A stretch of 54,899 nucleotides of DNA, from the IMG/VR virus record IMGVR_UViG_3300021963_000160, positions 1 to 54,899 of that record. One strand, written 5' to 3'. The position numbers and the translations under genes were made by a program. The stretch's first letter is position 1. Every line of letters starts with the position of its first letter. Source of the DNA: a virus. The notes below the pieces were generated by a model. The model saw only the letters and a list, made by a program, of their open reading frames with translations, did no database searches and had not been told where the DNA came from. Positions 17,697-54,899 of the stretch are shown here, in pieces.

Positions 17697-18413
17697 ATGT
17701 CGGAAACTAAATTAAGAGTTGCTATTTGTACTGCCGTATGGAAACGCCCCGAAATATTCGAGATGTTTGCGAAAGGCATACATAATCTTATTAAAAATTG
17801 CCCCGACATCGAGTTTGAAGTTATTGTGGCCGGAAGCGAAGGCCAAAAATCTAAATCTATGGTTCTAAAACACGAATTTTGGTATTTAGAAATTGTTAAT
17901 GACCCATTATCTATAAAAATGAACTCAACCGTAATGTTAGCTAAAACATTAAACGTAGATTATATCCTTGGTGTAGGTTCTGATGATGTAATAACTCCTG
18001 AGTTAATGTATCTTTATAAAGAGTCAATGGAAAATAGGGTTGATTATATCGGTGTGTTAGATTTTTACTTTTACGATACAACAAGTGGCAAATCTTCGTA
18101 TTGGGGTGGGTATCGTGAAGCATACAGGAAGGGTCATACATGTGGCGCAGGTAGACTTATTTCTAAGCGACTTTTAAATTTATGGAACTGGCAACCTTGG
18201 GAAGCTAGGCATAGCAAAATACTTGATACGTCTATCCAAGAGAAACTTAAACATACCCCTCATACGACCAAGGTATTTTCTTTAAAGCAAAATAATGTTT
18301 ATGCCTTAGACATAAAAAGTTCTACCAATATGACACCTTTTGAATTGTGGGATAATACTATCCACATAGATACCGAAATAATTAAAATGAAATTCCCTTA
18401 TATTTTTGAATAA
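17697..18413 (+). CDS. Glycosyltransferase, GT-A fold (family 2-like)
   Basis: 238 residues. It opens with the nucleotide-binding strand RVAICTAVWKRPEIFEMF and has an acidic GVGSDDVIT motif near residue 100, corresponding to the metal-binding DxD region. A YWGGYREAYRKGHTCGAGRLIS segment (given here as YWGGYREAY then CGAGRLIS) fits the acceptor side. It would transfer a sugar from a nucleotide donor to an unknown acceptor. It is the first enzyme of a compact cassette with methyltransferase, amidotransferase and acyltransferase genes, suggesting assembly of a modified glycan. There is no membrane segment, so it is cytoplasmic. Confidence 0.75.
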   Translation: MSETKLRVAICTAVWKRPEIFEMFAKGIHNLIKNCPDIEFEVIVAGSEGQKSKSMVLKHEFWYLEIVNDPLSIKMNSTVMLAKTLNVDYILGVGSDDVITPELMYLYKESMENRVDYIGVLDFYFYDTTSGKSSYWGGYREAYRKGHTCGAGRLISKRLLNLWNWQPWEARHSKILDTSIQEKLKHTPHTTKVFSLKQNNVYALDIKSSTNMTPFELWDNTIHIDTEIIKMKFPYIFE

Positions 18414-18414
18414 A

Positions 18415-18990
18415 ATGAAGATAGCCGACCCGAAACAATTTTACGAAAACTACCAAGCCGATAATGTACTTGACAAACTTGATTTTGAATTAGTAGACGT
18501 ATTATTATCTGTTGATCCGACATCTGCCTTTGAATTTGGCTGTGGCTCAGGTAAAAACCTTCAATTATTAAAATCTCACAATATCGATATTGAAACATGT
18601 GGTTTAGACATAAGTATCATTAATGTACTCCAGTCCCATTTAAACGGTGTAGATAGTGTTATTCGCGGAGATGAAAGGCATTTCCCATTACGAAAGTTTG
18701 ATGTTGTTTTTACCTGCTCTGTACTTGACCACATAAAAGACATTAATAATATAATTGGTGCAATGCAAGTAATGGCAAATAAAGCCATAGTTTTAGCCGA
18801 AACAAATTCCTTTAAAAAGAATTTTTACTATAAGCACAATTACACTAAGTACGGGTTTGTAAAGCACGATTTTAAATATGTATCTACTGAAGACGGGGGG
18901 GTATACGAAATTTGGGTATATAAAACTCCTGAATATTTAGAATCACTTGCAGGTGAAACCGATGATTTAACCGATACTTACTCTTGTTAA
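18415..18990 (+). CDS. SAM-dependent class I methyltransferase
   Basis: 191 residues from the ATG at 18415; a TTG nine bases earlier is possible but unnecessary. Motif I is FEFGCGSGKNLQLL, followed by the acidic end of strand 2 (TCGLDIS) and a motif IV-like FDVVFTCSVLDHI. These are characteristic of Rossmann-fold methyltransferases acting on small molecules or sugars. The C-terminus (GETDDLTDTYSC) is acidic. Flanked by the glycosyltransferase and the asparagine-synthetase-like gene, it most likely methylates a sugar or its nucleotide form. Substrate unknown. Confidence 0.75.
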   Translation: MKIADPKQFYENYQADNVLDKLDFELVDVLLSVDPTSAFEFGCGSGKNLQLLKSHNIDIETCGLDISIINVLQSHLNGVDSVIRGDERHFPLRKFDVVFTCSVLDHIKDINNIIGAMQVMANKAIVLAETNSFKKNFYYKHNYTKYGFVKHDFKYVSTEDGGVYEIWVYKTPEYLESLAGETDDLTDTYSC

Positions 18991-18991
18991 T

Positions 18992-20458
18992 ATGTGTGGG
19001 CTTGCAGTAGTATATTATAAAAACAAGACAGGCAACTATCATTTGAATAAAATGCTTGATACCATGTCGCATCGTGGGCACGATTTTCGGACTATTCGTT
19101 ATTACGATAATTGCTCCGTTGGGTATAATAGGCTTGCCATTACCGACAGGGAAAATAACATACACGGATCAGACCACCAATGGAGGATATTTTTAAATGG
19201 CGAAATTTACAATTACAAAGAATTAGGTTTTGAAGGAGTTGAAAATAGTGTTTTAGCGCAAGGACTTGAAAAGTACGGAGTAGATTTCGTAAAACAATTA
19301 AATGGTATGTTTGTTATTGTCGCTATTTCTCCCGAGGACCAAGTTTATGTTTTTAGGGATAGATACGGTATTAAGCCCGCATATTACTATGAAGATAATA
19401 ATATGATAATTGTATCTTCTGAAATCAAACCAATATTACAACATCCGGCATATAAGTTTTCTATTAATGAATCAGCAAAAAAACAGTGGCTTACTTTCAA
19501 TAATGTGTTCACGAACGAAACATTGTTTGATAGAATCTGCAAAATGGATAAAGGTACTATTTGGAATCTAAACACTAATCAAACCACAAAATATTGGGCA
19601 TGGGAGTTTAAGCCTACTCCAATGGATTTTGAGACAGCTAAAAACGAAGTTAAACGACTTGTTATACAGGCTATAAACCGAATGATACCAAAGGAAGTTC
19701 CTTATGCAAGTTGTTTAAGCGGGGGGATAGACAGTAATATTATCGCATCTCAATTACCAAAAGAAATAGAAACTTTTTGCGTTGGGTACATTGGCCCGTT
19801 TATCGAAGATGAAACCGAATTGGCGATGGCATCAGGAAGAAACCCTAATTTAGTTTTACTTTCTTGGATAGAAAACTTTGAAGAAACAATTTACCACTTA
19901 GAAGACCTTAGGGTTGGTGCTTGTTGGAGTAATTATAGATTATTTTCTGATGTTTCATGCCGGCATAAAGTAGTTTTTGATGGCGCAGGTGCAGATGAAT
20001 TATTTGGCGGGTACCCTTGGAGATATTCCGAACCAAATTATTATGATGTTGTAAATCGCACAAAAAACGATTCTGAATTTTGCAAGACACTATTTAACCT
20101 TATATATGGTTACGACACTTTGGAAAATAGGTTTAAATTCGATGCTGAACACTTTTTAGAAGGCGTACTGCTTGTTACCGATAGAATGAGTATGGCGCAT
20201 ACACTTGAAGTAAGGGTTCCTTTCCTTGATAATGACTTGGTAGATTTCTGTTTAACATTACCAAATGAGTTTAAAATAGAGAAACGAATCTTAAAAGCTG
20301 CATTTATTGATGAATTACATCCTGATATATTAATGGGGAAGAAAAAAGGGTTTGGCTCACCCGATTGGTTTCCAGGCGAAGGGAATCAAGCTAATAAATG
20401 GGCAAACGAAGCATATAATCAATGGAAATTAATATTTAATAATTATGGAACTTTATAA
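18992..20458 (+). CDS. asnB: Asparagine synthetase-like glutamine amidotransferase
   Basis: 488 residues. The N-terminal Ntn amidotransferase domain has the catalytic Cys2 (MCGLAVVYY), the RLAITDR and LNGEIYNYKEL glutamine-site motifs. The C-terminal synthetase domain carries the PP-loop SGGIDSN near residue 242-248 and the ending motif VRVPFLDNDLVDF. It uses glutamine and ATP to amidate a carboxylate, classically aspartate. It is somewhat shorter than AsnB (~554). Within a glycosyltransferase cassette, such proteins often amidate sugar or glycan carboxyls, so the true substrate is open. It starts 1 bp after the methyltransferase and overlaps the next gene. Confidence 0.85.
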   Translation: MCGLAVVYYKNKTGNYHLNKMLDTMSHRGHDFRTIRYYDNCSVGYNRLAITDRENNIHGSDHQWRIFLNGEIYNYKELGFEGVENSVLAQGLEKYGVDFVKQLNGMFVIVAISPEDQVYVFRDRYGIKPAYYYEDNNMIIVSSEIKPILQHPAYKFSINESAKKQWLTFNNVFTNETLFDRICKMDKGTIWNLNTNQTTKYWAWEFKPTPMDFETAKNEVKRLVIQAINRMIPKEVPYASCLSGGIDSNIIASQLPKEIETFCVGYIGPFIEDETELAMASGRNPNLVLLSWIENFEETIYHLEDLRVGACWSNYRLFSDVSCRHKVVFDGAGADELFGGYPWRYSEPNYYDVVNRTKNDSEFCKTLFNLIYGYDTLENRFKFDAEHFLEGVLLVTDRMSMAHTLEVRVPFLDNDLVDFCLTLPNEFKIEKRILKAAFIDELHPDILMGKKKGFGSPDWFPGEGNQANKWANEAYNQWKLIFNNYGTL

Positions 20459-20981
20459 CTTAGAAGAACACGGATTTATAAATCTAAACGGCAACTGGAT
20501 ACATTCCACTGCTATTATTTATCCTTGCGTAACGCTTGGAAGGAATAATATAATCGGGGCATACTCGGTTATTGGTTCAAATGGAGAAATGCGAAATGTG
20601 AATCCATCTGAATTTAAAGGAGGTGTGGTTATCGGAGATGACAATGTTATTTCGGAGCTTGTAACCATTCAGAGACCGTTTAATGAAGATGAATTTACTT
20701 TAATTGGTAATGGGAATATTATAATGGCGCATAGCCACTTTGGACACAATGTAACATTAGGTAATAACAGCGAAATATGCACAAATGTTGTACTTGGAGG
20801 ATATTCAAATATTGGAGATAATGTTAAAATCAAACTCAGCGCAACCGTTAGAAACCGAATAATAATTGGGAGCAACTCAATAGTTGGGCTAGGAAGTGCT
20901 GTTGTAAAAGATATACCTGGAGGGCAAGTGTGGATGGGGAATCCTGCAAAGTTTTATAAATTAAATAATCCGAACTCCTAA
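20445..20981 (+). CDS. Left-handed beta-helix acyltransferase (LpxA-like)
   Basis: 178 residues built of hexapeptide repeats: STAIIYPCVTLGRNNIIGAY, VVIGDDNVISE, NIIMAHSHFGHNVTLGNNSE, VVLGGYSNIGDNV, ending with VVKDIPGGQVWMGNPAKFYK. The MAHSHFGHN segment resembles the catalytic His region of LpxA/LpxD-type acyltransferases. It would form a trimer and transfer an acyl or acetyl group to a (nucleotide) sugar. It overlaps the asparagine-synthetase-like gene by 14 bp and the next gene by 1 bp. Together with its neighbours it points to synthesis of an acylated sugar. Confidence 0.8.
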   Translation: MELYNLEEHGFINLNGNWIHSTAIIYPCVTLGRNNIIGAYSVIGSNGEMRNVNPSEFKGGVVIGDDNVISELVTIQRPFNEDEFTLIGNGNIIMAHSHFGHNVTLGNNSEICTNVVLGGYSNIGDNVKIKLSATVRNRIIIGSNSIVGLGSAVVKDIPGGQVWMGNPAKFYKLNNPNS

Positions 20982-21739
20982 TGAAACTCTGTTTAGCTTA
21001 CACTGTTTTTACCCACGAATTACTTGAACAGTCTATTGCTAATCATATAGACTTAGTGGATGGAATTATTATTTGCTATCAGGAGATTTCAAATAAAGGC
21101 AACAAAACCGCATTTCCGATTGACAAGTTTACTCATGAAAAGATAACTATTGTTAAATACGAACCTAATCTTGCCCTTGGAACCAAATTAAATGAAGTAT
21201 GCAAACATAACCTAATGATTAAAACTGCAAAGAACAAGGGGTTTTCACATATTATTTTATCAGCTTGTGACCATTTTTATGATAAAAATCAGTTTGCGTA
21301 CGTTAAACAGCAAGTAATAGATAAGGATTATGATATTAGTTATACCAAAATGTTCACCTACTATAGAAATCCTATTTATCAAATTACCCCAATAGAAGAT
21401 TATTATATGCCTTTTATTATCAAATTGCATACTAATACTCAGGTAGAAAGTAATGTTAAAACTCCGGTACTTGTAGACCCGTCTGTAAAAGTAAATACTT
21501 GTAAAAATTGGAAACTATTTTCAGAACATGAAATAATGTTACACCATTACTCGATGATACGTTTAGACATAAAGGATAAGTTCAAAAATGCAGCAGCTTC
21601 TATTAGATGGAAACCTGAACAAGTGCAACGATTCATTTCTGAGTATGAAAACTTTTCTATTGAAGATAATAAGCCGATTGAGTACTTCCAAAACCGCAAA
21701 TGTAAAGTTGTCAGAAACTACTTTAATATAGCTAACTAA
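20981..21739 (+). CDS. Glycosyltransferase-like protein
   Basis: 252 residues. The first 100 residues (CLAYTVFTHELLEQSI; VDGIIICYQE; FSHIILSACDHFYDKNQF) follow the GT-A pattern with an acidic CDHFYD motif in place of DxD, then a segment with conserved aromatic residues and a HHYSMIRLD motif as in family 2-like transferases that end with a histidine near the active site. It is the last gene of the cassette. Substrate unknown; a nucleotidyl or sugar-processing role cannot be excluded. Confidence 0.6.
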   Translation: MKLCLAYTVFTHELLEQSIANHIDLVDGIIICYQEISNKGNKTAFPIDKFTHEKITIVKYEPNLALGTKLNEVCKHNLMIKTAKNKGFSHIILSACDHFYDKNQFAYVKQQVIDKDYDISYTKMFTYYRNPIYQITPIEDYYMPFIIKLHTNTQVESNVKTPVLVDPSVKVNTCKNWKLFSEHEIMLHHYSMIRLDIKDKFKNAAASIRWKPEQVQRFISEYENFSIEDNKPIEYFQNRKCKVVRNYFNIAN

Positions 21740-21749
21740 AAACGGTTAT

Positions 21750-21899
21750 ATGGATGCTGATTGGAAAGATGAAGAACCATTTGTAATAGATGAATTTTTA
21801 CAGAACTTTCTCAACGTAAAACAAACTACCCTTTTAACTCAATTTAGGAGTCTGAATACCATCATAAAACCAATAATCTTCCCCAGCAACCTTCTCTAA
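21750..21899 (+). CDS. Possible small protein, 49 aa (overlaps convergent gene)
   Basis: The frame starts at ATG 21750 (MDADWKDEEPFVIDEF) 10 bp after the preceding gene and has an acidic, plausible N-terminus. Its last 65 bp run antisense over the end of the convergent glycosyltransferase gene, where the protein sequence becomes low-quality. It may be a remnant or a chance frame. Confidence 0.3.
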   Translation: MDADWKDEEPFVIDEFLQNFLNVKQTTLLTQFRSLNTIIKPIIFPSNLL

Positions 21900-22478
21900 A
21901 CTAATCTTATTCTCCTTATACATACCTAACATATCAGTATGGAATCTCCCACCTACCTTACCAACCCCATGCTTAATACCCAAACAAATTATTTCCTTAG
22001 GTAAAAACGTTAACTTATTCTTAACATTAGTCCATAAATGACTATCCGTATAAGGATAATCATCAGCAGGCCAAGTCAATTCTAAATCCGCCTTAATTAA
22101 CGTACTCATCATACTACTTCTACTTGCATGACGAAAAACAAAATCCTTCCTTAAACCCAAATGATAATATATCGTATAATTAGGCCCAAATATATCAGGC
22201 CTCCCTGCCTTATCCCATTCTGTTACCATAACCTCAATATAACAAGGACTATACCAATCATCGCTTTCTATAAACAAAATAACATCTAAACCACAATTTC
22301 TAAGCTTATCATAACCATACCTATACCTAGGCGTTATATCACAATCATCACTAACAGGAGCATAATCAACAACCTCTATAACCTCAGGTCTTAAAGTCTG
22401 CCTATCCATCATCCTATAATACTGCTCCATAAACAAAGGCCTATCCCCTCTGTCTGGAGTTATAATTCCTACTCGCAT
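21834..22478 (-). CDS. Glycosyltransferase-like protein, C-poor coding strand
   Basis: 214 residues. It starts MRVGIITPDRGDRPLFMEQ and has the GT-A acidic motif FIESDDWYS near residue 70, a DIFGPNYTIYYH strand and a closing GEDYWFYDG block. This matches family 2-like phage or capsule glycosyltransferases. It faces the plus-strand sugar cassette convergently and overlaps a 41-residue gene at its start (stop/start overlap). The coding strand is strikingly poor in C compared with neighbouring genes, as seen from the A/C-rich plus strand, suggesting a different mutational history or transfer. Confidence 0.7.
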   Translation of the reverse strand: MRVGIITPDRGDRPLFMEQYYRMMDRQTLRPEVIEVVDYAPVSDDCDITPRYRYGYDKLRNCGLDVILFIESDDWYSPCYIEVMVTEWDKAGRPDIFGPNYTIYYHLGLRKDFVFRHASRSSMMSTLIKADLELTWPADDYPYTDSHLWTNVKNKLTFLPKEIICLGIKHGVGKVGGRFHTDMLGMYKENKISLEKVAGEDYWFYDGIQTPKLS

Positions 22479-29750: not shown

Positions 29751-29882
29751 ATAACGGTACTTGGCTTAGCGAAGAAGTGGAAAAGCAAGCCTAATCTTTC
29801 GGTTTAGAAACCAAAATAACAAACACAAAACCAACATTGAATTAAGCCTAAAACCGCTTTTTTGCTAAACCAATGTTATAAC
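29751..29882. repeat. attC-like inverted-repeat segment A
   Basis: Ends ATAACGG...GTTATAAC. The inner arms TTGGCTTAGCGAAGAAG (29761-29777) and CTTTTTTGCTAAACCAA (29857-29873) are almost complementary (14 of 17 with G-T pairs). No gene lies inside. It resembles an integron attC site (outer simple-site arms plus imperfect inner arms). No integrase gene is in the window. Confidence 0.6.
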
Positions 29883-29892
29883 TCGTTTTTTT

Positions 29893-30078
29893 ATGAAAAA
29901 ATATTTATTGCAATTAATAGAAGTAGAAATAGAAAACACAATGAAAAAGTTAATTCATTGGAACAAAATGGAAGATAGGTTTAAATCAGACCCTTATCAT
30001 ATACGTTGCAAATTAGCAATGGAACGTAAATTGGAAAAAATTAGTCGTTATAAAACTCGGGTGCAAAATGAGTTATAA
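29893..30078 (+). CDS. Small cassette protein, 61 aa
   Basis: MKKYLLQLIEVEIENTMKK then a basic, helical part (KLAMERKLEKISRYKT). The whole gene lies inside inverted-repeat segment B (29875-30079) whose ends GTTATAACTCG... and ...GAGTTATAAC pair; the stop codon TAA is within the right arm, as in integron cassettes. Function unknown, but the charged helical protein has no membrane segment. Confidence 0.5.
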   Translation: MKKYLLQLIEVEIENTMKKLIHWNKMEDRFKSDPYHIRCKLAMERKLEKISRYKTRVQNEL

Positions 30079-30165
30079 CGGTATCGGGCTTGGCGAAGGT
30101 GGGCTTGTAGGATGCTCAATTTTAGCAGGATGTGTATGCCCACTTTTGCCAAACCCGTGTTATAT
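30072..30165. repeat. attC-like inverted-repeat segment C
   Basis: Outer arms GTTATAAC (30072-30079) and GTTATAT (30159-30165) surround inner arms CGGGCTTGGCGAAGGTGGGC (30085-30104) and GCCCACTTTTGCCAAACCCG (30138-30157), which pair along 18 of 20 positions. A 33-base loop holds no gene. It is the clearest attC-like hairpin of the array. Confidence 0.65.
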
Positions 30166-31003
30166 GAAGTGCCGACTTATTTACGATAAAGCCCAATTGG
30201 AACACTAAACAGAAAAACAAAAAGAAAAAAAGCGATGGCAATAAAAGATAAATATAATGTAAAAAGTGTATCAACCGACCAATGCAAAGAATGGCTGTTG
30301 AAGAAACACTACTTACATAGAATGACATCATTTACTTACTCATTTGGATTGTATGAAAATAATTTATTAGTTGGCGTTATTACTTTTGGAAATGCAGTTC
30401 CTTTGACAATGAAAAAATCATTATTTGGAGAAAAGTATATGGATTTGGTTTACGAATTAAATAGACTATGTACGAATGATGATTTAGATAAAAACGCAAC
30501 ATCTTTTTTTGTGGCTGAATCTTTTAAACTACTTCCAAAGCCATTGATAATTGTAAGCTATGCAGATAAATCAGTTGGACATAATGGGTATATTTACCAA
30601 GCAACTAATTTCATATTTACTGGAGAAAGCCATACTCAATTGGATTGGAAATTGAAAGGCAAAGAACATATACATAGCAGAACTTTAATGGATGAATTTG
30701 CATTTACAGAAGATAGAATTGAAAAGTTGAAAGAAAAGTATGGAGACCAATTATATCAAGTTAGGAGAGAACCAAAATACAGGTATGTTTATGTATTGGC
30801 TAATAAAAAACAAAAAAAAGAGATAATGAACAGCAAATTATTTAAATCAAAACCATACCCAAAAGGAGAAAACACAAGATATGATGCAAGTTATAAACCA
30901 AGTATTCAAACAGAATTATTTTAAAAGTGCGATGGCTTTTTTCTTTTTGTTTTTCCTTCACGGAACTTCAATTGGAACACGTCAGCAAGGCATTTCATAT
31001 AAC
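30159..31003. repeat. Inverted-repeat segment D carrying the first Mom-like gene
   Basis: Outer arms: 30159-30173 and 30989-31003 (GTTATATGAAGTGCC versus GGCATTTCATATAAC), paired at 14 of 15 positions plus one G-T. Inside them lie a 12-bp direct repeat CAATTGGAACAC (30194-30205 and 30969-30980) and a near-perfect 21-bp inverted repeat (30212-30233, one extra A, versus 30935-30955). The gene sits at the apex of these nested palindromes. Confidence 0.6.
30235..30924 (+). CDS. Mom-like DNA-modification protein 1 (GNAT-type fold expected)
   Basis: 229 residues. It contains blocks recognisable from the phage Mu Mom family: CKEWLLKKHYLHRM, YELNRLCTNDDLDKN, ATSFFVAESFKLL, and IIVSYADKSVGHNGYIYQAT then NFIFTGE. 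Mom converts adenine to N6-carbamoylmethyl-adenine in DNA and protects phage DNA from restriction; the fold is related to GNAT acetyltransferases. The start GCGATGG lies at the loop of a large palindrome and GTGCGATGG follows the stop, so the gene is bounded by a repeated motif. It is about 38 percent identical by eye to the second copy. Whether it has Mom's exact chemistry is unproven. Confidence 0.65.
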   Translation: MAIKDKYNVKSVSTDQCKEWLLKKHYLHRMTSFTYSFGLYENNLLVGVITFGNAVPLTMKKSLFGEKYMDLVYELNRLCTNDDLDKNATSFFVAESFKLLPKPLIIVSYADKSVGHNGYIYQATNFIFTGESHTQLDWKLKGKEHIHSRTLMDEFAFTEDRIEKLKEKYGDQLYQVRREPKYRYVYVLANKKQKKEIMNSKLFKSKPYPKGENTRYDASYKPSIQTELF

Positions 31004-31085
31004 GGTATCGGGCTATATGCAGTGCGAAATAACACACAAAAGATGATACGAAGCACAACAGTAATAATTTTAAAATATTTTTAGC

Positions 31086-31748
31086 GTGGAAATTAAAAAA
31101 ATAAATCCAGTTGATTGTAAGGAATGGCTTTTGACCAAACACTATGCAAAAAGAATGACTCCAATAAATAAGGCGTTTGGATTAGTTATAAATAATTCTA
31201 TTGTAGGTGTTTGTACTTTTGCCATACCAGCATCAAGGTTTGAATTTTCATTACAGCCATACGAATTAAATAGGTTAGTGGTTAATGAAAATTTGGGCAA
31301 AAACATACTTTCTCAATTTGTAGGAATGTGTTTAAGAGAATTTGGAGAATCTGCAATAATTGTTTCGTATGCAGATGAAAATTATGGACACCACGGATAT
31401 ATTTATCAGGCTACAAATTGGATTTACACTGGTCGTTCATCTGCTGAAAAAAGAATGTTTGTTAATGGACAAGAATTGCACAGGAGAACACTATACGACA
31501 AATACGGAACATCATCAATACCAGAATTAGAGAAACTTGGATTAAATATTACTTACAATAAACAGCTTGGTAAGCATAGATATTTCCAATTTACTGGCAC
31601 AAAAAAAGATAGCAAGATACTGAAAGAAGAAGTAATATTAAAATACGGCACACAACCATATCCAAAAGGAAACAATACAAGATATGATTCTGGTAATGAT
31701 ATTAAGATAAATATAAAACCAAAAGCAGTACAAACATCACTATTCTAA
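31086..31748 (+). CDS. Mom-like DNA-modification protein 2 (GTG start)
   Basis: 220 residues. The GTG at 31086 is chosen because it keeps the conserved CKEWLLTKHYAKRM segment, which an ATG 70 bp later would lose. Family blocks: YELNRLVVNENLGKN, SQFVGMCLREF, IIVSYADENYGHHGYIYQAT, NWIYTGRS and LHRRTLYDKYGTS; the C-terminus PYPKGNNTRYDSG parallels PYPKGENTRYDAS of copy 1. The gene is in the loop of segment E. A hairpin follows the stop (31749-31765). Two tandem but diverged Mom-like proteins suggest different target motifs or division of labour. Confidence 0.65.
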   Translation: MEIKKINPVDCKEWLLTKHYAKRMTPINKAFGLVINNSIVGVCTFAIPASRFEFSLQPYELNRLVVNENLGKNILSQFVGMCLREFGESAIIVSYADENYGHHGYIYQATNWIYTGRSSAEKRMFVNGQELHRRTLYDKYGTSSIPELEKLGLNITYNKQLGKHRYFQFTGTKKDSKILKEEVILKYGTQPYPKGNNTRYDSGNDIKINIKPKAVQTSLF

Positions 31749-31765
31749 TGGCTTTGAAAAAGCCA
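31749..31765. terminator. Hairpin after the second Mom-like gene
   Basis: TGGCTTT and AAAGCCA arms around a short loop start right after the stop codon. The T run is weak, so termination is uncertain. Confidence 0.35.
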
Positions 31766-31855
31766 AAGTGCGGTGGGAAAAATATTTTAAAATTATGGTC
31801 AAATTAGAACAAAACTCGATACGAAGCACGGAACTAAGCATTGCATATAGCCCGT

Positions 31856-32010
31856 GTTATAGCATCGTTTTAATGTGCTATAACGTTTTGCAGCTAACCG
31901 AAGGCAGGGAATTTAACCACAAAACAACAATGGAAACACGAAACTTGAACACACCACAAAACTATCTTAGGAGCAGTAAAACCCTGCTTTTGGTTAGGTG
32001 CTGTTATAAG
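31856..32010. repeat. attC-like segments F (empty, 29 bp) and G
   Basis: Segment F (31856-31884) is only GTTATAGCA, an 11-base loop and TGCTATAAC, as if its gene were missing. Segment G (31877-32010) has inner arms CAGCTAACCGAAGGCAGGG (31891-31909) and CCCTGCTTTTGGTTAGGTGCTG (31982-32003, written in parts: CCCTGCTTTTGG and TTAGGTGCTG), nearly complementary, and no gene. Confidence 0.55.
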
Positions 32011-32234
32011 AAGTAGCGAATTATTAACGATAAATTTAATTAAAATGAATATAACATTAGCAAAAGTAAAAAGAACACTCGAAAAAGATTATGGGTGGAG
32101 TAATATGAATATTGAAAGTCAAAAATTTTTAATTGACGAATTGATAAAAGATACACTCAAAATTATAGATAATGAATTGCGAACTCACAAAGGGATTTCC
32201 ATTAAGAAACGCTAATGTAGCTATTTCTTATAAC
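32003..32234. repeat. Inverted-repeat segment H, right end of the array
   Basis: Arms GTTATAAGAAGTAGC (32003-32017) and GCTATTTCTTATAAC (32220-32234) pair at 14 of 15 positions plus one G-T and enclose a small gene. Beyond it the palindromic chain stops. Confidence 0.6.
32045..32215 (+). CDS. Small cassette protein, 56 aa
   Basis: MNITLAKVKRTLEKDYGWSN, then a helix (SQKFLIDELIKDTLKIID) and a basic tail (HKGISIKKR). It is enclosed by segment H, with its stop 5 bp before the right arm. Function unknown; size and charge resemble an antitoxin or small DNA-binding protein, but no partner gene is visible. Confidence 0.5.
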   Translation: MNITLAKVKRTLEKDYGWSNMNIESQKFLIDELIKDTLKIIDNELRTHKGISIKKR

Positions 32235-48009: not shown

Positions 48010-48263
48010 AACACTCCAACCACTTCGCGCAATTGTATTATAGTAACGCTTAGTTTATTTATTGTCATTGTAAAACTATTTGTTCTGTCATACAAAATAA
48101 CATCACCTGACTTTACAGTTTCAACCTCATCACCAACTGCGATAACCTTCCCTTTGTAGTATCTAGATTTAGTTGAGTCATCCGCCGATAAAAGCATACC
48201 TGATGACGTTTCTTCGTTTTCAATAATGGTTTCTAGTGTTATGTACTTAGCTATTGGTTTCAT
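48006..48263 (-). CDS. groES: Co-chaperonin GroES
   Basis: 85 residues. KYITLETIIENEETSSGMLL gives the GroES first strand and mobile loop ending in SGMLL (host: GGIVL), then KGKVIAVGDEVETVKSGDVILYD matches the family GkVvAvG...GD.Vly pattern. The length is slightly shorter than bacterial GroES (~95). It follows groEL with a 4-bp overlap. It should cap the phage or host GroEL chamber. Phage-encoded GroES of this bacterial type, next to GroEL, is uncommon. Confidence 0.85.
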   Translation of the reverse strand: MKPIAKYITLETIIENEETSSGMLLSADDSTKSRYYKGKVIAVGDEVETVKSGDVILYDRTNSFTMTINKLSVTIIQLREVVGVF

Positions 48264-49834
48264 GCTCTTTGAATGTTTATAGATGCGTTTGTACTTAAGA
48301 TTGTAATTGCTACCGATATGGCGTTCTGTAATGCTACTCTTGTTACTTTAAATGGGTCTATCACGCCCATGTCCATTAGATTACCGTATTTACCAGTTTT
48401 AAGATTATACCCTTCGCCTTTAGACATAGAACTACCGTATATAGATACAGCATCAAGGTCGGCATTTTTTAGTATTTGCATTAAAGGAACTTTAATAGCA
48501 TTCATAATAATATCGTGGGCACAAATATATTCAGATGTACCGTTTAAATCCACAGGGACAGAAACTTCCCATAACGCCTTCCCTGCTCCGCTTATAATAC
48601 CTTCTTCTATTGCAGACTTAACGGCCAATACCGCATCTTCAACCCGGTCAAATAATTCTTTCTGCTCCATGTCGGTATTCCCTCCAACGTAGATTATCCC
48701 AATACCACCTATCAATGAGGCTATTCTTTCGTTTATGAAGTCTTTTTTGTGTTTCTTATCTGCAAGGTCATAAGCAGTTCTTAATTGCGATACTCTTGCG
48801 TCAAGCAGCTCTTTGTCTCCGCCGCCTTCAAGTATTACGGTTTTGTTAGCACCTACAATAACCTTTTTTGCGTATCCTAAACTCTCAAAAGTAACTACAC
48901 TTAGATTGTCTCCTGTTTGTTCAGAGAAATATGTAGCACCTACCGAAAGGGCTATATCTTGCATAAGGTCATTCTGCTTAACCCCAAAATTAGGAGGCTG
49001 TATTACACACGCATTAATTCTCCCTGTTTTCACATTTGCCGCAAACGTATTTATGACGTTAGTGGTACAAGGGGATATTACTAAAAATCTCCTGCCTGCA
49101 TCTATCACCTCGCCTATGACTTTGTTTAATTGCTGAAAGTTGGCTATCTCTGTATCGCAAACTAAGATTGATACATTTTCCATTATGCACTCTTCCTTGC
49201 CCCAATCATTTATAAATGATGGCGAACTGTAACCTCGCGCCACCATCAATCCATTAATTATATCAGAACGGGTTTCACTGTCGTATCCTTTCTCGATTGT
49301 GATAATACCATCGTTTCCTACACTCTTATAGGCATCGGCAATTATCTTGCCTATTTCGGGGTCATTATTGGCTGAAATAGTAGCTACATCTAAAATGATT
49401 TTATCAGTACACTGAATGGCATCTTGTTTTAAGGTATTGATAACTTCCTCGGAAATATCAGACATGAATTTTAAAACATTTGTCCTATTTAATTCGGGAG
49501 TTATTTTATCAATAGCTTCCAATATCAACGCTTCGGAAAGTACAATAGCGGTACTTGTTCCATCGCCGGCTAATGATGCGGTTTTTTCTGCTGCTTCTTT
49601 TACAATACGAACCGCCATGTTTTCAACAGGATTAGGCAACTCTATTGAGCGTGCTACTGTTACACCGTCCTTTGTTACAGTTAGGCCGTGTGTTTGATGT
49701 ACTGTTTCAATAAGTACAGTTCTACCGTATGGACCTAATGTACTTTTTACTGCTGAACTTAATTTTTTAATTCCTTCAACCAAGGAATCACGGCAATCGT
49801 CACCGAATAGCAAATCTTTTGTTAGAACTTCCAT
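48260..49834 (-). CDS. groEL: Chaperonin GroEL
   Basis: 524 residues from ATG 49834 (MEVLTKDLLFGDDCRDSL), which fits the GroEL N-terminus better than an upstream ATG at 49867. Motifs: TVTKDGVTVARSIEL, LAGDGTSTAIVLSEA (ATP loop, GDGTT with one change), the DRVEDAVLAVKSAIEEGII block holding the catalytic Asp and the GTS...AP equatorial end. The C-terminal Gly-Gly-Met tail of bacterial GroEL is missing (ends SINIQRA). ATPase residues appear intact, so it should form a folding chamber with its GroES. Phage groEL genes are rare; here groEL-groES form an operon. Confidence 0.9.
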   Translation of the reverse strand: MEVLTKDLLFGDDCRDSLVEGIKKLSSAVKSTLGPYGRTVLIETVHQTHGLTVTKDGVTVARSIELPNPVENMAVRIVKEAAEKTASLAGDGTSTAIVLSEALILEAIDKITPELNRTNVLKFMSDISEEVINTLKQDAIQCTDKIILDVATISANNDPEIGKIIADAYKSVGNDGIITIEKGYDSETRSDIINGLMVARGYSSPSFINDWGKEECIMENVSILVCDTEIANFQQLNKVIGEVIDAGRRFLVISPCTTNVINTFAANVKTGRINACVIQPPNFGVKQNDLMQDIALSVGATYFSEQTGDNLSVVTFESLGYAKKVIVGANKTVILEGGGDKELLDARVSQLRTAYDLADKKHKKDFINERIASLIGGIGIIYVGGNTDMEQKELFDRVEDAVLAVKSAIEEGIISGAGKALWEVSVPVDLNGTSEYICAHDIIMNAIKVPLMQILKNADLDAVSIYGSSMSKGEGYNLKTGKYGNLMDMGVIDPFKVTRVALQNAISVAITILSTNASINIQRA

Positions 49835-49859
49835 TAAATTTAATTTTATTGAATTTTGA

Positions 49860-50627
49860 TTATGCAAAAATACCCAAAAGATTTAATATTTCTTCTGGTG
49901 TATATTTTATTTCAGGCTTACCATAATGGTTAATTTCTTTTATTTCTCCCGATTTTAGTTTTTCTATTATTTCCAGCATGTCCATTTTTAATTTTACATC
50001 TCGGTTTATATGCGTAGATAAGAATTTTTTACCCCTATATAAAGTAGGAGGTCCCCATTTATTATCAAAATCATTTTTTAAGTGAATAACAAAGTATTGG
50101 TATTCATTCACAGAAAAACGTGTAAGCATCATAGGTGTATCCAAATCAGAATTGGAAGCATCTATTACTTCTATTGGTTCTGATGTGTAGTAGCGCTCTT
50201 TAAATCGTTCGTGGATTTTATCGTTTACGCCAAGTATTTTCTCTTCTCCAGTTATCCCGTGTTTATCTACCAGAATCTTGTTTCCTATATTAAAACTTCG
50301 GCAAAGCCCATTGACGGTTGTATGTTTAGATATGTAATGAAATGTATTTACGGTGCGTATTATTTTTTCTCCATCAAATTCATATCTTTCTTCGGGTTCT
50401 CTATACCAATAATTGATATCATACCAACTTACATCAACATATCTTTTTAATCCTGCGCTTCTAAGACATTGGCTAAAAGCATATACTTTAGCTCCAGCTA
50501 CAATTACTTTAGGTTTTTTGGGGCCTATTGCCTTGCCTCTACCAAATTCCTTAGTTTTGCTGAAGCGTTTTTTTGACCGCCATACTTTTTTGCCTTTAAA
50601 ATTAAGTTCACCCCTTACTCTTGGCAT
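49860..50627 (-). CDS. 255-aa protein upstream of groEL, unknown
   Basis: MPRVRGELNFKGKKVWRSKK, very basic N-terminus (SKKRFSKTKEFGRGKAIGPKK) followed by mixed alpha/beta (YRGKKFLSTHINRDVKLK) and an acidic helical end (TPEEILNLLGIFA). No enzyme motif recognised. It sits between the polyvalent protein gene and groEL and could be a virion or folding-substrate protein. Unknown function. Confidence 0.55.
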   Translation of the reverse strand: MPRVRGELNFKGKKVWRSKKRFSKTKEFGRGKAIGPKKPKVIVAGAKVYAFSQCLRSAGLKRYVDVSWYDINYWYREPEERYEFDGEKIIRTVNTFHYISKHTTVNGLCRSFNIGNKILVDKHGITGEEKILGVNDKIHERFKERYYTSEPIEVIDASNSDLDTPMMLTRFSVNEYQYFVIHLKNDFDNKWGPPTLYRGKKFLSTHINRDVKLKMDMLEIIEKLKSGEIKEINHYGKPEIKYTPEEILNLLGIFA

Positions 50628-50628
50628 A

Positions 50629-53600
50629 TTATAATCCCTTTACTTCTTGAACTTCTTTTAATTCTTTTAATTCTTTTAGTTCTTTTATTGGACGGATAGA
50701 TAAAGGTTTTGTTTTTTTATCATATACGTTTACTCCACCACCAAAAAAAGCATAAAACATTAATAGTCCGTCTAGTGCTGTGGGGTCATCTTTCAATAAT
50801 TCTTTAACGGTATCCCAATAGATTGGATAAGAATTTTTCTTTAATTCTTCGGTAATACTATATGGATTTCCCCATTGATCCACGGTTACTCCATTTTTCT
50901 CGTGTGTAGTTAGGAATTTTTGAATCATAGATGCAGATGGCGCAAGTTTATTAACAGCTTGGTCTCCTATTAATCCTAGTCTAGTAGGTGCTCTATAGGG
51001 CGTTCCAAGCTTAACCACTTCACCGCTGCCATTTTTTATTGAACCTGCTATTATTCTTGCAAGGAATACTATTTGTTGTATCCTTCCACCCCAAGGGTCA
51101 ACTCGTGTGTTACCTATTTTAATTTTACCAAAATCAGAACTTGTAGGGTCGGTTTCAACTCCTGTTTCATCATCATCGTCATCGCTGTAATACATTGCCG
51201 CAGCAGTAACTAATCCCATTGTTAATCCTATAAATTTAGAATAATCTAACAGTGCTATTTTATTTGCTATTGAAACACCTGGAGTACCTGATTTATTTCT
51301 CCATTTATATAATTGTCTTGGGAATAAAATAGTTTGTTTTAATGCACTTGCCCAGTTTCTAGGAGAAAAGAATACCCTAGTTAATGTTGGTGCTATTTGT
51401 TCTAACGGACCTAAAGATGCTCTGCCTGTAAAAGTATTAACAACATCTGCTAAGTCTTTAAATGCTTGCGGGTCGTTCTCAAATCTAATACCCCTTTCGT
51501 GTAGCATTTCTCTTCCGTTTAAAAACTTTAATACCCTCATTGTATCAAGGTACCCAACTGCCGCTCTTTCAAATGCCTTGAATGGACTTGCGTTTTTCCA
51601 TTTATCAAATGCGGATTTACTTTTAAGTTTTAATGCTGAACCTAAAATATTCCAAACAAAGTTTGCTGCATCCGACAAAAATAACTCTTCTCTTGCAGTA
51701 GCCTCTCCTCGTGGTTCCGAAATAGAGAGTTTGCTTTGTCTCATCTCTGGATACCACTCTTGAGACTTAATCATATTTAGCCAATTTTCTGTCTTAGATT
51801 CACTACCAAAAAACTTCATAGCAGTCGCAAATGATTTTAATGCGTATGTAGGATTAGATATTGATAGCACTAAGCCTTGTATTCCCACAAATGAAAATTC
51901 ACCGGTTGCTCTTAATAACCTTGTCAATCCCCATGCGTTCCATAAGGCGTCTATTGTTTTTTCGGCTTTGGTTCTATTGTTTAATTTAGCTTTATAAATT
52001 TCTTTGTCGTATTCTTCGCGCAACCTTAATTTTTCGGCTTGCAGATTCAATAACTCAGAATCTTTTATTAATGGAGATTTCTCTTTTTTACTAAAATCTT
52101 TTTCTTTTAATCTTCTTCTTAAATCATTGATAGCACGTTGACTTGCTTTTTTAGTTGCATCTAATCTTTTTGCCTGTAAAAAAGACTCATCCTTAAATAT
52201 CTCATCGTGCTTGATTTTAAGTTTATCTCTTTGTTCTTTTAGATTAGTTAATTCAGCATCTTCAGCCATAGACCTTTTACTTAGCGGAACTCTCATTCCT
52301 TTGTCTATTTCTCTTTGCAAGTCCTCTATCTGATTGGTGATTCTTTGCTTTGTGGCATCAAGAGCTGTTTTTTGTTGCTTAGCTTCTAATTCTGCATCTA
52401 TAGGAAGCTCTTTCATTAACTCCCTTAATTCTTTATTTAATGCTCTTTCTTGAGCATCTAGCTTATCTCGCTGTAATCCGCTCCTTAGTGGGCGTTTCTT
52501 GTTATTTACATCTTCAAGTGCTGAAACAATTCTACCAATACGTTTTATTTTTCTAATTGATGCGAGTATTTCATCTTTACTTAAATTTTTTATTTTTCCG
52601 TATTGTGTTATAGCGTCTCGGATTTCCCTATCAGTAATATCAGGATACTCTTCTTTTATTATATCTTTAACTCCCTCAACTACCTCTTCTATAGTAGTAG
52701 CGCCTTCTTCTACCAATCTCCTTATAAGCCCACTTGGTATCTTAATGCCTACGCCTGGTATTGCTTCTTTATTAACCCAAAACTCTGAAAATTGCTTTTC
52801 TGCTTCTTTCTTATCTGAATCAGACAAAGACTTGTACCAATCACTTTTTACAATATGCTCTAATCCTTTAGCTATAGCCTCGGCACTTCTACCTGTTACT
52901 TTAATTGTACCCGCAACTATCTTGACAGCGCCATCCCAAACCAATGATGCAGGTGTGGCTGATAAGAACATACCGGGTCGATTCAACTGAGCTTCCTTTA
53001 CTCTTGATACTATCCAATCTGTTTCTGTTCTTATTTTACTTGATACAGTAGCCTTTTGTTTAGGTGTTCGTGCTGCGGCCTCTTGAATATTTTTTATTGC
53101 TAATTCACCTTCGGCTTTAATAGCACGTTCTTCTGCTTCTGCAAGTTTTTGTTTTACTTCTTTATATTGAGCATCAAGTTCTCTGAATTTCTCTTCTACC
53201 TCTTCGGATATTTGACCATTATTTGCGTCTCTGTATTCTTTAATTTTATTTTCTACATTGTATCCAATATCTGAATTTTGATATATATCTGCCAATGCTG
53301 ACGAAAAACGACCTCCACTTAATGCTTTCCTGCTAAATTCATTAAATAATCCAGCTTGTTCTTTTTCTAATTCAGCTAACTTAGTAGGGTCTTTTTCTTT
53401 AGATATTTTTCTATCTAATCTTTCAAGTATTTCGTTCCAAACATATGCACCTGCGGCATCTGAAACGTCATTATTTCTAACGGCCTCTAATGCTGTTTCT
53501 ACACCTACGGTATTTACAAATTCAATTGCTCTTTCTTTGGCTTCTTGTTGGTTTTCTACATCTCTTGTTAGACCTAGTTTTTCAAGTTCACGTTTTACCC

Positions 53601-54899
53601 CTGCTCTAACATTTCCTTCATATACTCTTGAAGTTGCTATTGTTTTCTTAACCTCTTCTGTGGTTTCATCTATAACGGTAGTAACTTTTTTGTATATTTT
53701 GTCAAACTGAGTAACTGCTAACTTTTCATTCAAATCAACACCAGGCAATTCGTCTTTAAACCTTTCAATAAATTCTTTTGCAGTAAGAATACCATCGGCA
53801 ATGTATGATTTAATCAATTCTACGAACTCAGGTAAGGCTTGGAATCCTCCTGATGACATATTCTTTGACTTTTCAATAAATGCTTTCTTGGCGGCCTCTA
53901 TTCGTTGTTTAGATTGTTCTTTTGGTGTTAATCCTTTAAATAATGGTATTCCACTTTCAACTGACTCTTTTAATTCGGGTGTTATGTCTATTGAGTGTTG
54001 TGTTGAAGTTTTACGCTTTGCAATTTCTGCATCATACTTCAGTTTTTGTTCTCTTAGATATGCTAATGCCTCTTGCTTTTGCTCTGCATCAAAGACCTTA
54101 CCTTCCCCTTCAAATGGTGAGGAAACTCCAATTCTGCCATCACCACTTTTAGAAATTGACGGAGGTGTATCTAAATTTACTTTACTATCGCTAATTTCAA
54201 TATTCACCGTTCCCACCTCTTGCTTAGTCAAACTCTTGGCTACACTACCTACTATGCCTAATTGATTTTCTGTTGGTGAACCGTAAAATCCTTTCATGCC
54301 TGTTCCCCCAACTTTTAAATCTACACCGCTAAAAGAGTTCCAAACATCATCTTTATTAACACCTTCATATTCTTTTTTAGCTTCCGTCATAAGAGTAAAA
54401 TACTTCTTACTTTCTGCTGAATTTTCATTATTAGGATGCCTTAAATAACTTTCTAAAGTTCTTACCTCTGCTTTCCCGTAGCTGTCTTGCAGTTCATTTT
54501 GAAAGTCTTGAAACTCCTTTATAGCCCCTTTTCTAAACGAAATTTCTTCATTGTGTTCATCGCTTATTTTTTTAGCTAAGTCTTTACCAACAAATTCTTC
54601 AAGTTTATTTTCAGGTACATTGTTTTGTTCAAATGCACTATTGCCATCTTTATATCCTATAATAGTATAAGTACCGTCAGGATATTTTTTTGTTGAAATT
54701 TCATCAACCTGCTTACTTAAATCGTATCTATCATTCTGTTGCTCGCCTGTTGTCCAAGCAATCTTATCAGCACCTTGTTTTACTGCTTCTTTTAATGCGA
54801 CCTTCAATGCGAGCTTAGTCCATGCGTTTGTGTCGGTTACGAATGGGGCTGATGGTGGTACTGTCTTATCATTAAAAACATCTCCCTCTTCATATACAT
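50629..54899 (-). CDS. Large polyvalent protein (C-terminal part; runs off the right edge)
   Basis: The frame is open to the last base of the window, so the N-terminus is missing; about 1420 residues are visible. Near the edge it reads PPSAPFVTDTNAW and AWTTGEQQNDRYDLSKQVDE, a signature of large polyvalent proteins of phages and mobile elements. Coiled-coil stretches follow (ELDAQYKEVKQKLAEAEERA; ATKQRITNQIEDLQREI) and a C-terminal membrane-active-looking region (FIGLTMGLVTAAAMYYSDDD) and a KELKELKELKEV tail. Such proteins are injected or virion-associated and carry assorted effector domains. No polymerase or protease motif is visible in this part. Confidence 0.75.
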   Translation of the reverse strand, partial: VYEEGDVFNDKTVPPSAPFVTDTNAWTKLALKVALKEAVKQGADKIAWTTGEQQNDRYDLSKQVDEISTKKYPDGTYTIIGYKDGNSAFEQNNVPENKLEEFVGKDLAKKISDEHNEEISFRKGAIKEFQDFQNELQDSYGKAEVRTLESYLRHPNNENSAESKKYFTLMTEAKKEYEGVNKDDVWNSFSGVDLKVGGTGMKGFYGSPTENQLGIVGSVAKSLTKQEVGTVNIEISDSKVNLDTPPSISKSGDGRIGVSSPFEGEGKVFDAEQKQEALAYLREQKLKYDAEIAKRKTSTQHSIDITPELKESVESGIPLFKGLTPKEQSKQRIEAAKKAFIEKSKNMSSGGFQALPEFVELIKSYIADGILTAKEFIERFKDELPGVDLNEKLAVTQFDKIYKKVTTVIDETTEEVKKTIATSRVYEGNVRAGVKRELEKLGLTRDVENQQEAKERAIEFVNTVGVETALEAVRNNDVSDAAGAYVWNEILERLDRKISKEKDPTKLAELEKEQAGLFNEFSRKALSGGRFSSALADIYQNSDIGYNVENKIKEYRDANNGQISEEVEEKFRELDAQYKEVKQKLAEAEERAIKAEGELAIKNIQEAAARTPKQKATVSSKIRTETDWIVSRVKEAQLNRPGMFLSATPASLVWDGAVKIVAGTIKVTGRSAEAIAKGLEHIVKSDWYKSLSDSDKKEAEKQFSEFWVNKEAIPGVGIKIPSGLIRRLVEEGATTIEEVVEGVKDIIKEEYPDITDREIRDAITQYGKIKNLSKDEILASIRKIKRIGRIVSALEDVNNKKRPLRSGLQRDKLDAQERALNKELRELMKELPIDAELEAKQQKTALDATKQRITNQIEDLQREIDKGMRVPLSKRSMAEDAELTNLKEQRDKLKIKHDEIFKDESFLQAKRLDATKKASQRAINDLRRRLKEKDFSKKEKSPLIKDSELLNLQAEKLRLREEYDKEIYKAKLNNRTKAEKTIDALWNAWGLTRLLRATGEFSFVGIQGLVLSISNPTYALKSFATAMKFFGSESKTENWLNMIKSQEWYPEMRQSKLSISEPRGEATAREELFLSDAANFVWNILGSALKLKSKSAFDKWKNASPFKAFERAAVGYLDTMRVLKFLNGREMLHERGIRFENDPQAFKDLADVVNTFTGRASLGPLEQIAPTLTRVFFSPRNWASALKQTILFPRQLYKWRNKSGTPGVSIANKIALLDYSKFIGLTMGLVTAAAMYYSDDDDDETGVETDPTSSDFGKIKIGNTRVDPWGGRIQQIVFLARIIAGSIKNGSGEVVKLGTPYRAPTRLGLIGDQAVNKLAPSASMIQKFLTTHEKNGVTVDQWGNPYSITEELKKNSYPIYWDTVKELLKDDPTALDGLLMFYAFFGGGVNVYDKKTKPLSIRPIKELKELKELKEVQEVKGL

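Follow-up and report, generated by a model that had tools for sequence, protein, structure and literature searches.

Both Mom-like genes in a viral DNA stretch of 54,899 nt (the window; IMG/VR record IMGVR_UViG_3300021963_000160) are likely to be cargo of an integron-like array carried by a phage, in which an Xer-like recombinase would move whole cassettes and ORFs would be exchangeable at the tip of a palindrome. The carrier probably belongs to a group of phages infecting Bacteroidota, an assignment based upon MAG relatives (L035, L037 and L038) and Polaribacter phage P12002L; the IMG/VR records carry no host label.

The array spans window positions 29752–32234, where TAAC...GTTA hairpins alternate with small genes (Table 1). 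Our own hairpin model, used in place of IntegronFinder or HattCI, counted three compact hairpins and one gene-containing hairpin, without a recombinase. The compact hairpins are the three best matches in the window to covariance model R1, which was built from 24 hairpins with H2 among them, and H1 folds into an R stem, a 4-nt bulge and a long stem. The ends of the gene units mirror each other at 29875/30065, 30159/30989 and 32003/32220, and the first and last cassettes carry ORFs of 61 aa (29893–30078) and 56 aa (32045–32215), respectively. Both mom1 and mom2 passed the family sequence match to Mom-like proteins. The former lies between two hairpins of the array and the latter within a third, H3, whose outer arms have a 5/1-nt spacer and a G.T identical in kind to those of ordinary hairpins. 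Neither a hairpin nor a recombinase was found 3' of the last cassette, and an Rfam search (E≤10) returned a single chance snoRNA match. The outer palindromes and the hairpin array around both genes were absent from an earlier, sequence-only reading of this DNA. Both Mom proteins end in a QxxLF/QTxLF-like tail (30910–30924 and 31734–31748) resembling a sliding-clamp-binding motif, which is also present on several cassette methyltransferases (L074 5163–5882; L283 and L292) otherwise unrelated to Mom.

Table 1. Features of the integron-like array and its two mom genes (window coordinates)
Feature	Position	Strand	Basis
attC-like hairpin H1 (TAAC ... GTTA, 127 nt)	29752–29878	+	R1 match, E 0.055, third best in window
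Cassette 1, ends GTTATAACTCG / GAGTTATAAC	29875–30079	+	inverted repeat; between consecutive hairpins
attC-like hairpin H2 (87 nt)	30076–30162	+	R1 match, E 1.4e-8 (H2 in R1 training set); fold z -4.76
mom1 cassette, 'frame A', GTTA to TAAC	30159–31003	+	inverted repeat; frame reused with other cargos elsewhere
mom1 outer arms, bearing conserved G.T	30159–30173 / 30989–31003	+	inverted repeat
mom1 left direct repeat CAATTGGAACAC	30194–30205	+	repeat search, shuffles
mom1 left inner palindrome arm	30212–30230	+	inverted repeat
mom1 left tip motif GCGATGG, start codon within	30232–30238	+	left homology edge versus L003
mom1, Mom-like DNA modification protein, 229 aa, C-terminus QTELF	30235–30924	+	PHROG 1384, 2.2e-56
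mom1 right tip motif GTGCGATGG, 2 nt past stop	30927–30935	+	right homology edge versus L003
mom1 right inner palindrome arm	30937–30955	+	inverted repeat
mom1 right direct repeat CAATTGGAACAC	30969–30980	+	repeat search
attC-like hairpin H3 (TAAC-GGTAT-CGGGCTATATGCAGTGC ... GCATTGCATATAGCCCG-T-GTTA), mom2 in loop	31000–31859	+	inverted repeat; long-hairpin scan
mom2 outer palindrome	31009–31025 / 31838–31854	+	inverted repeat
mom2 left direct repeat GATACGAAGCAC	31045–31056	+	repeat search
mom2 left inner palindrome arm	31064–31082	+	inverted repeat
mom2 left tip motif GCGTGG, GTG start codon within	31084–31089	+	sequence
mom2, Mom-like DNA modification protein, 220 aa, C-terminus QTSLF	31086–31748	+	PHROG 1384, 6.4e-46
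mom2 right tip motif GTGCGGTGG	31768–31776	+	sequence
mom2 right inner palindrome arm	31778–31796	+	inverted repeat
mom2 right direct repeat GATACGAAGCAC	31818–31829	+	repeat search
Gene-less cassette frame GTTATAGCATCGTTTTAATGTGCTATAAC, short loop CGTTTTAATG	31856–31884	+	sequence; loop recurs at other loci
attC-like hairpin H4	31881–32006	+	R1 match, E 0.014, second best in window
Last cassette, ends GTTATAAGAAGTAGC / GCTATTTCTTATAAC	32003–32234	+	inverted repeat

The repeats immediately around the two genes were compared with first-order (dinucleotide-based) shuffles of the gene flanks, 3000 for each. The 19-bp inverted repeats were reached by 0/3000 shuffles for either gene, and the 12-bp direct repeats by 1/3000 (mom1) and 5/3000 (mom2), placing the latter nearly beyond chance. 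The sequence-only reading had located both pairs of direct repeats and the perfect 19-bp inverted repeat of mom2 correctly, and its view that the two palindromes are unrelated in sequence was borne out for the mom1 and mom2 arms, which share the same geometry. For mom1 it gave an inverted repeat of 21 bp; the repeat is there, but its perfect part is 19 bp and the rest consists of flanking bases with a mismatch. In appearance, inverted repeats flanked by direct repeats would fit an ordinary transposon or MITE, the former being its terminal inverted repeats and the 12-bp direct repeats its target-site duplications. However, such an element is very improbable here, as the mom1 and mom2 arms are unrelated despite their geometry, where conserved terminal inverted repeats would be expected, no transposase was found among the cargos read and the units stand head to tail in an array. 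Furthermore, the 12-mers resemble a CGAARCAC-like motif that recurs in many unrelated frames and they are therefore poor evidence for a target-site duplication, a reading that was rejected.

Pooling all loci, which are mostly phage contigs, yielded 237 distinct hairpins, whose lengths peak near 87 and 125 nt, and 138 cassettes lying between one hairpin and the next. Hairpins were found by a home-made rule with the GTTA/TAAC boxes fixed beforehand. Loci L124–L243 were gathered via the tip motif described below, and counts from them are biased for that reason; L256–L335 and the Mom homologues were gathered without it, and a hairpin-only pattern (TATCGGGCTTGGCGAAG, again without the tip motif) retrieved 83 viral stretches. 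Beyond GTTA, at least 8 of 10 bases were complementary in 51 % of cassettes, compared to 0.5 % when the ends of different cassettes were paired as a null. At the tenth base past the G of GTTA, 78 of 81 palindromic cassettes had a mismatch, which was G opposite T in 73 of the 81. Across 200 scored hairpin stems, a C.A recurred near position 4 and a G.T at positions 10 and 13. Two-sided changes were seen at all ten stem pairs in a covariation set of sequences selected for stem strength. The resulting grammar consists of TAAC/GTTA boxes, a dominant 5/1-nt spacer and G.T and C.A mismatches at fixed positions, so that the features of attC sites (imperfect hairpin, R/L boxes, asymmetric spacer and unpaired bases) are all present as judged by our own hairpin rule. 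The GTTA core is invariant, as imposed by the search, and the next bases vary (TA, GC, TG or AG), often violating the RRR of GTTRRRY. The choice of attC strand relies on unpaired features, such as extrahelical bases (PMC5371416), and by analogy the fixed, strand-asymmetric G.T and C.A blemishes look like their counterpart.

Polaribacter phage P12002L has two covariance-model matches beside its Mom and methyltransferase genes, and these genes have hairpins and palindromic frames as in the window. One P12002L attC recombined with attI1 by IntI1 in a published assay (PMC9892861), and it may be one of the two model matches. A distant DNA search with H2 and the left frame as query gave 0 matches in plasmids and one weak match in phages. 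A contig of another bacterial genome (L486; G452:C12) holds six such hairpins, and there the right arm of a methyltransferase cassette lies within the coding sequence, in a K/E/R-rich C-terminus, which means that the protein is constrained by the palindrome. In a 169-kb phage record (L349 126–7644), at least five DNA methyltransferase-like genes occupy consecutive cassettes, like an anti-restriction stockpile. The loop CGTTTTAATG recurs in 11 of 23 hairpins of ≤60 nt in these arrays and is also present in P12002L (examples are L033 158 and 919, L074 2583 and window 31866). The hairpin at L351 7529–7655 and some others of 120–130 nt contain a small start-to-stop ORF in the loop, perhaps a minimal cargo.

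Nine phage contigs or regions encode an Xer-like tyrosine recombinase of 267–289 aa (L349, L354, L147, L355, L353, L257, L350, L352 and L351); L351 and L352 are separate regions of the same 246-kb record. The recombinase lies 3' of the array in 9/9, and L353 also has one hairpin beyond the recombinase. All hairpins in these loci are on the recombinase strand and none is on the opposite strand; all but one are upstream, the nearest at 178–1350 bp, except in L353, where it is 3.7 kb away. The best solved relatives of the recombinase are XerA (4a8e, 5hxy) and IntI4 (2a3v), and the recombinases score below the cut-off of the integron-integrase model (TIGR02249) and lack the IntI-specific insert region. 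In the nine contigs, the last cassette ends in TAAC, with an AT-rich stretch after it, shortly before the recombinase start (consensus TAAC.a.TATAT.TA, no hairpin), which is a candidate attI. Read on the other strand, the order would be recombinase, attI and attC array, as in integrons. In L349, where the array was inspected gene by gene, cassette ORFs run toward the recombinase, and the integron pattern of cassette transcription away from attI and the integrase was not seen. In the window there was no recombinase match and no copy of the candidate attI motif, and its array may therefore be inert. The L355 phage is a relative of the window phage, as judged by eye from a shared long protein at window 50629–54807. 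Cellular relatives of the recombinase (G003:C32 (L356), G431, G452 and G457) are about 36–43 % identical and about 365–416 aa long, with an N-terminal extension; they lie mostly away from hairpin arrays and, of those checked, one is ≤10 kb from a model match.

Exchange within cassettes is indicated by the motif at which the palindromes break. The sequence-only reading had noted this shared motif and it was recovered as GCGATGG/GTGCGATGG at mom1 and GCGTGG/GTGCGGTGG at mom2, with the mom1 edges matching the limits of homology to a homologue in L003. The two genes are 93.8 % identical in DNA, and the homology begins at GCGATGGC (GCGATGG) and ends at TTTTAAAAGTGCG (GTGCG); beyond these edges the frames are unrelated and each is self-palindromic. 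The window mom1 cassette and L058 represent the reverse case, being near-identical outside the tip points and unrelated inside. Frame A was found around nine cargos (window, L058, L261, L282, L290, L292, L306, L307 and L312), its shared ends being 81–100 % identical, and in total 52 pairs with the same frame and different cargos were spread over several frames. Only one clean pair with the same gene in different frames was found at >90 % identity. Among the cargos were two Mom genes and a PAPS-reductase-like protein, along with methyltransferases and small or unassigned ORFs, the non-Mom families being judged by eye. Their start codon sits in GCG-ATG-G or GC-GTG-GG and mostly a TAA stop directly precedes AAGTGCGG.

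The motif is present in a minority of cassettes (right copy 36/138, left copy 21/138). Flanks were usable at 135 Mom homologue positions, which include duplicates of one locus, and nine distinct homologues had strongly complementary flanks. Inspecting Mom neighbourhoods for the motif, as had been proposed, gave GTG[C/T]GRT ≤20 nt from the stop in 7 of these nine; none of the remaining ~120, most of which have ordinary flanks, had the motif within this distance. The same palindromes and motif surround unrelated genes, including methyltransferases, multi-ORF cargos and, in L104, a 63-aa ORF on the opposite strand. As this ORF is opposed while the motif copies around it follow the array, the motif is more than start-codon context, and start-codon context as its whole cause was also ruled out by the right-hand copy.

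These cargos also bear upon a purely regulatory role, in which pairing between the untranslated 5' and 3' arms of the mRNA, or their action as terminators, would hide the start codon of a toxic modification gene, without any part in mobility. The translation of Mu mom is regulated, the left arm here is A-rich and contains the start codon, and the right motif has a small terminator-like hairpin in front of it in mom2, L033, L038 and L074. However, the same ends surround unrelated genes as well as the opposite-strand ORF in L104, and they run on into an attC-like hairpin with a fixed asymmetric G.T, making this explanation improbable.

Empty palindromes holding one GTGCGGTGG copy, for which the sequence-only reading had advised a search, were found in L164 and L211 (form GTTATAAGCAGTACTTTGGTTGTGCGGTGG...GTATTGCTTATAAC). 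Only these two fitted among the matches to the empty-palindrome pattern in viral contigs, which were mostly chance matches, and the right-tip pattern gave 9 matches in 395 genomes of one phylum, chance-like by sequence. Single GCGTTGG tips were present in 11 empty attC-like hairpins by scored count (twelve listed, 68–78 nt), and in 0 on the opposite strand. A long-hairpin scan found cargo in the loop of eight attC-like hairpins at seven loci (window mom2, L038 mom, L285, L143, L187 twice, L208 and L265), and gave 0 matches with null anchors.

The earlier proposal of a mobile gene that targets hairpin loops was thus upheld in that genes bounded by GCGNTGG are replaced at tips, and not in its specificity for Mom, as the cargos are diverse. 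In its fuller form, a mobile gene unit would insert into hairpin loops and duplicate GCGRTGG, the tip motif being the true site and the outer hairpins mere targets, through an enzyme not yet known or the array recombinase. We regard this as doubtful. It would account for breakpoints inside the motif on both sides of mom1 and its L003 homologue, for the single motif copy of empty palindromes, for a motif found in the tips of both hairpin types and on one strand in the attC-like ones (11 versus 0), for genes within two structurally different hairpins, and for a motif orientation that tracks the array around the opposed ORF of L104. However, the cargo has neither ends nor an enzyme of its own, one frame is common to many genes, the array is built of whole GTTA-bounded cassettes and the motif is missing from most of them. 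The empty forms are rare and might have arisen by slippage deletion between short direct repeats. Nor would the element bring the gene alone, as had been suggested, because the motif, arms and repeats are part of the cassette frame. Judged from the array architecture, mobility would belong to the entire cassette, hairpin included, with GTTA/TAAC as its limits, and not to the bare gene.

We therefore return to the integron-like array as the preferred explanation. The modular array, its conserved asymmetric sites, the linked recombinase, the reuse of frames and the exchange between gene and frame at the tip motif can be read directly in the DNA. In a cassette, mirror-image ends (GTTA-arm ... arm'-TAAC) would enclose an ORF, and an attC-like hairpin (TAAC-5 nt-stem-loop-stem-1 nt-GTTA) would separate each cassette from the next. 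We infer that the recombinase acts on these hairpins, recognizing the folded hairpin together with the initial ~11 bp at the cassette ends, reading the strand from the fixed asymmetric G.T/C.A positions, and excising and inserting whole cassettes at GTTA. For the window array, the recombinase may be supplied in trans, or the array may be a relic. At the hairpin tip, an ORF would be swapped between the left GCGNTGG, often with the start codon, and the right GTGCGNTGG, just past the stop. The inferred and preferred route is that, as the phage recombines, the short repeats anneal by their short homology or allow template switching, with slippage between the two motif copies yielding the empty forms; an alternative would be a dedicated cut at GCG^NTGG, similar to that made by integrases at G^TT. 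Tentatively, these would amount to two nested levels of recombination, in which GTTA hairpins move cassettes and GCGNTGG tip repeats swap bare ORFs in ready-made frames, which we consider possible, if less likely than otherwise.

The making of an integron cassette from an ordinary gene has been described as largely unknown (PMC5371416). Here, the junctions fall in one short motif whether many ORFs share a frame, one ORF occupies two frames or the frame is empty, and cassette genesis is therefore directly testable. If true, the nested levels would represent a working route to new integron cassettes, with the frame supplying the start codon, stop codon and recombination site, operating in an integron-like system whose genes face the integrase. 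Taken together, the data point to a widespread phage system that shuffles counter-restriction genes (Mom and methyltransferases), with hosts that are probably Bacteroidota, in which complete integrons are reported to be rare (PMC9024848). Elsewhere in the window, a GroEL-like chaperonin of 535 aa is encoded at 48260–49867 (translation judged by eye), and a cluster at 17697–22478 reading as glycosyltransferase, methyltransferase, asparagine-synthase and acetyltransferase genes suggests sugar or surface modification by the phage.

In comparison with known systems, the arrays share with the canonical integron (IntI, attI and attC) the succession of a recombinase, a candidate attI and a strand-asymmetric hairpin array, and cassettes of one short ORF. 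They differ in that the recombinases score below the cut-off of the IntI model and have no counterpart of its insert region, the core appears to be GTTA and not a strict GTTRRRY, complementarity reaches far past the 7-bp R box, and cassette ORFs face the recombinase, whereas canonical ones face away. In VCR-type cassettes of the sedentary integrons of Vibrio, many different ORFs have near-identical recombination sites; here, both ORF flanks are shared, down to the start and stop codons. Most homologues of Mom-like proteins (PHROG 1384) are ordinary phage genes without palindromes, whereas the window pair are cassette cargo. Integron gene cassettes, or CALINs, in phages have already been described, P12002L included (Qi et al. 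2023, PMC9892861). These phage CALINs resemble the present arrays in their folded sites, small cargo genes, frequent DNA methyltransferases and lytic phages, and P12002L itself bears the present hairpins and palindromic frames. The available sections of that paper do not describe palindromic ORF ends, a tip motif, the exchange of ORFs within a fixed frame, genes in attC loops or the array-linked Xer-like recombinases of metagenomic phages. Relative to the known phage integron fragments, the palindromic gene frames, the exchange at the tip and the orientation of genes toward the recombinase appear to be new.
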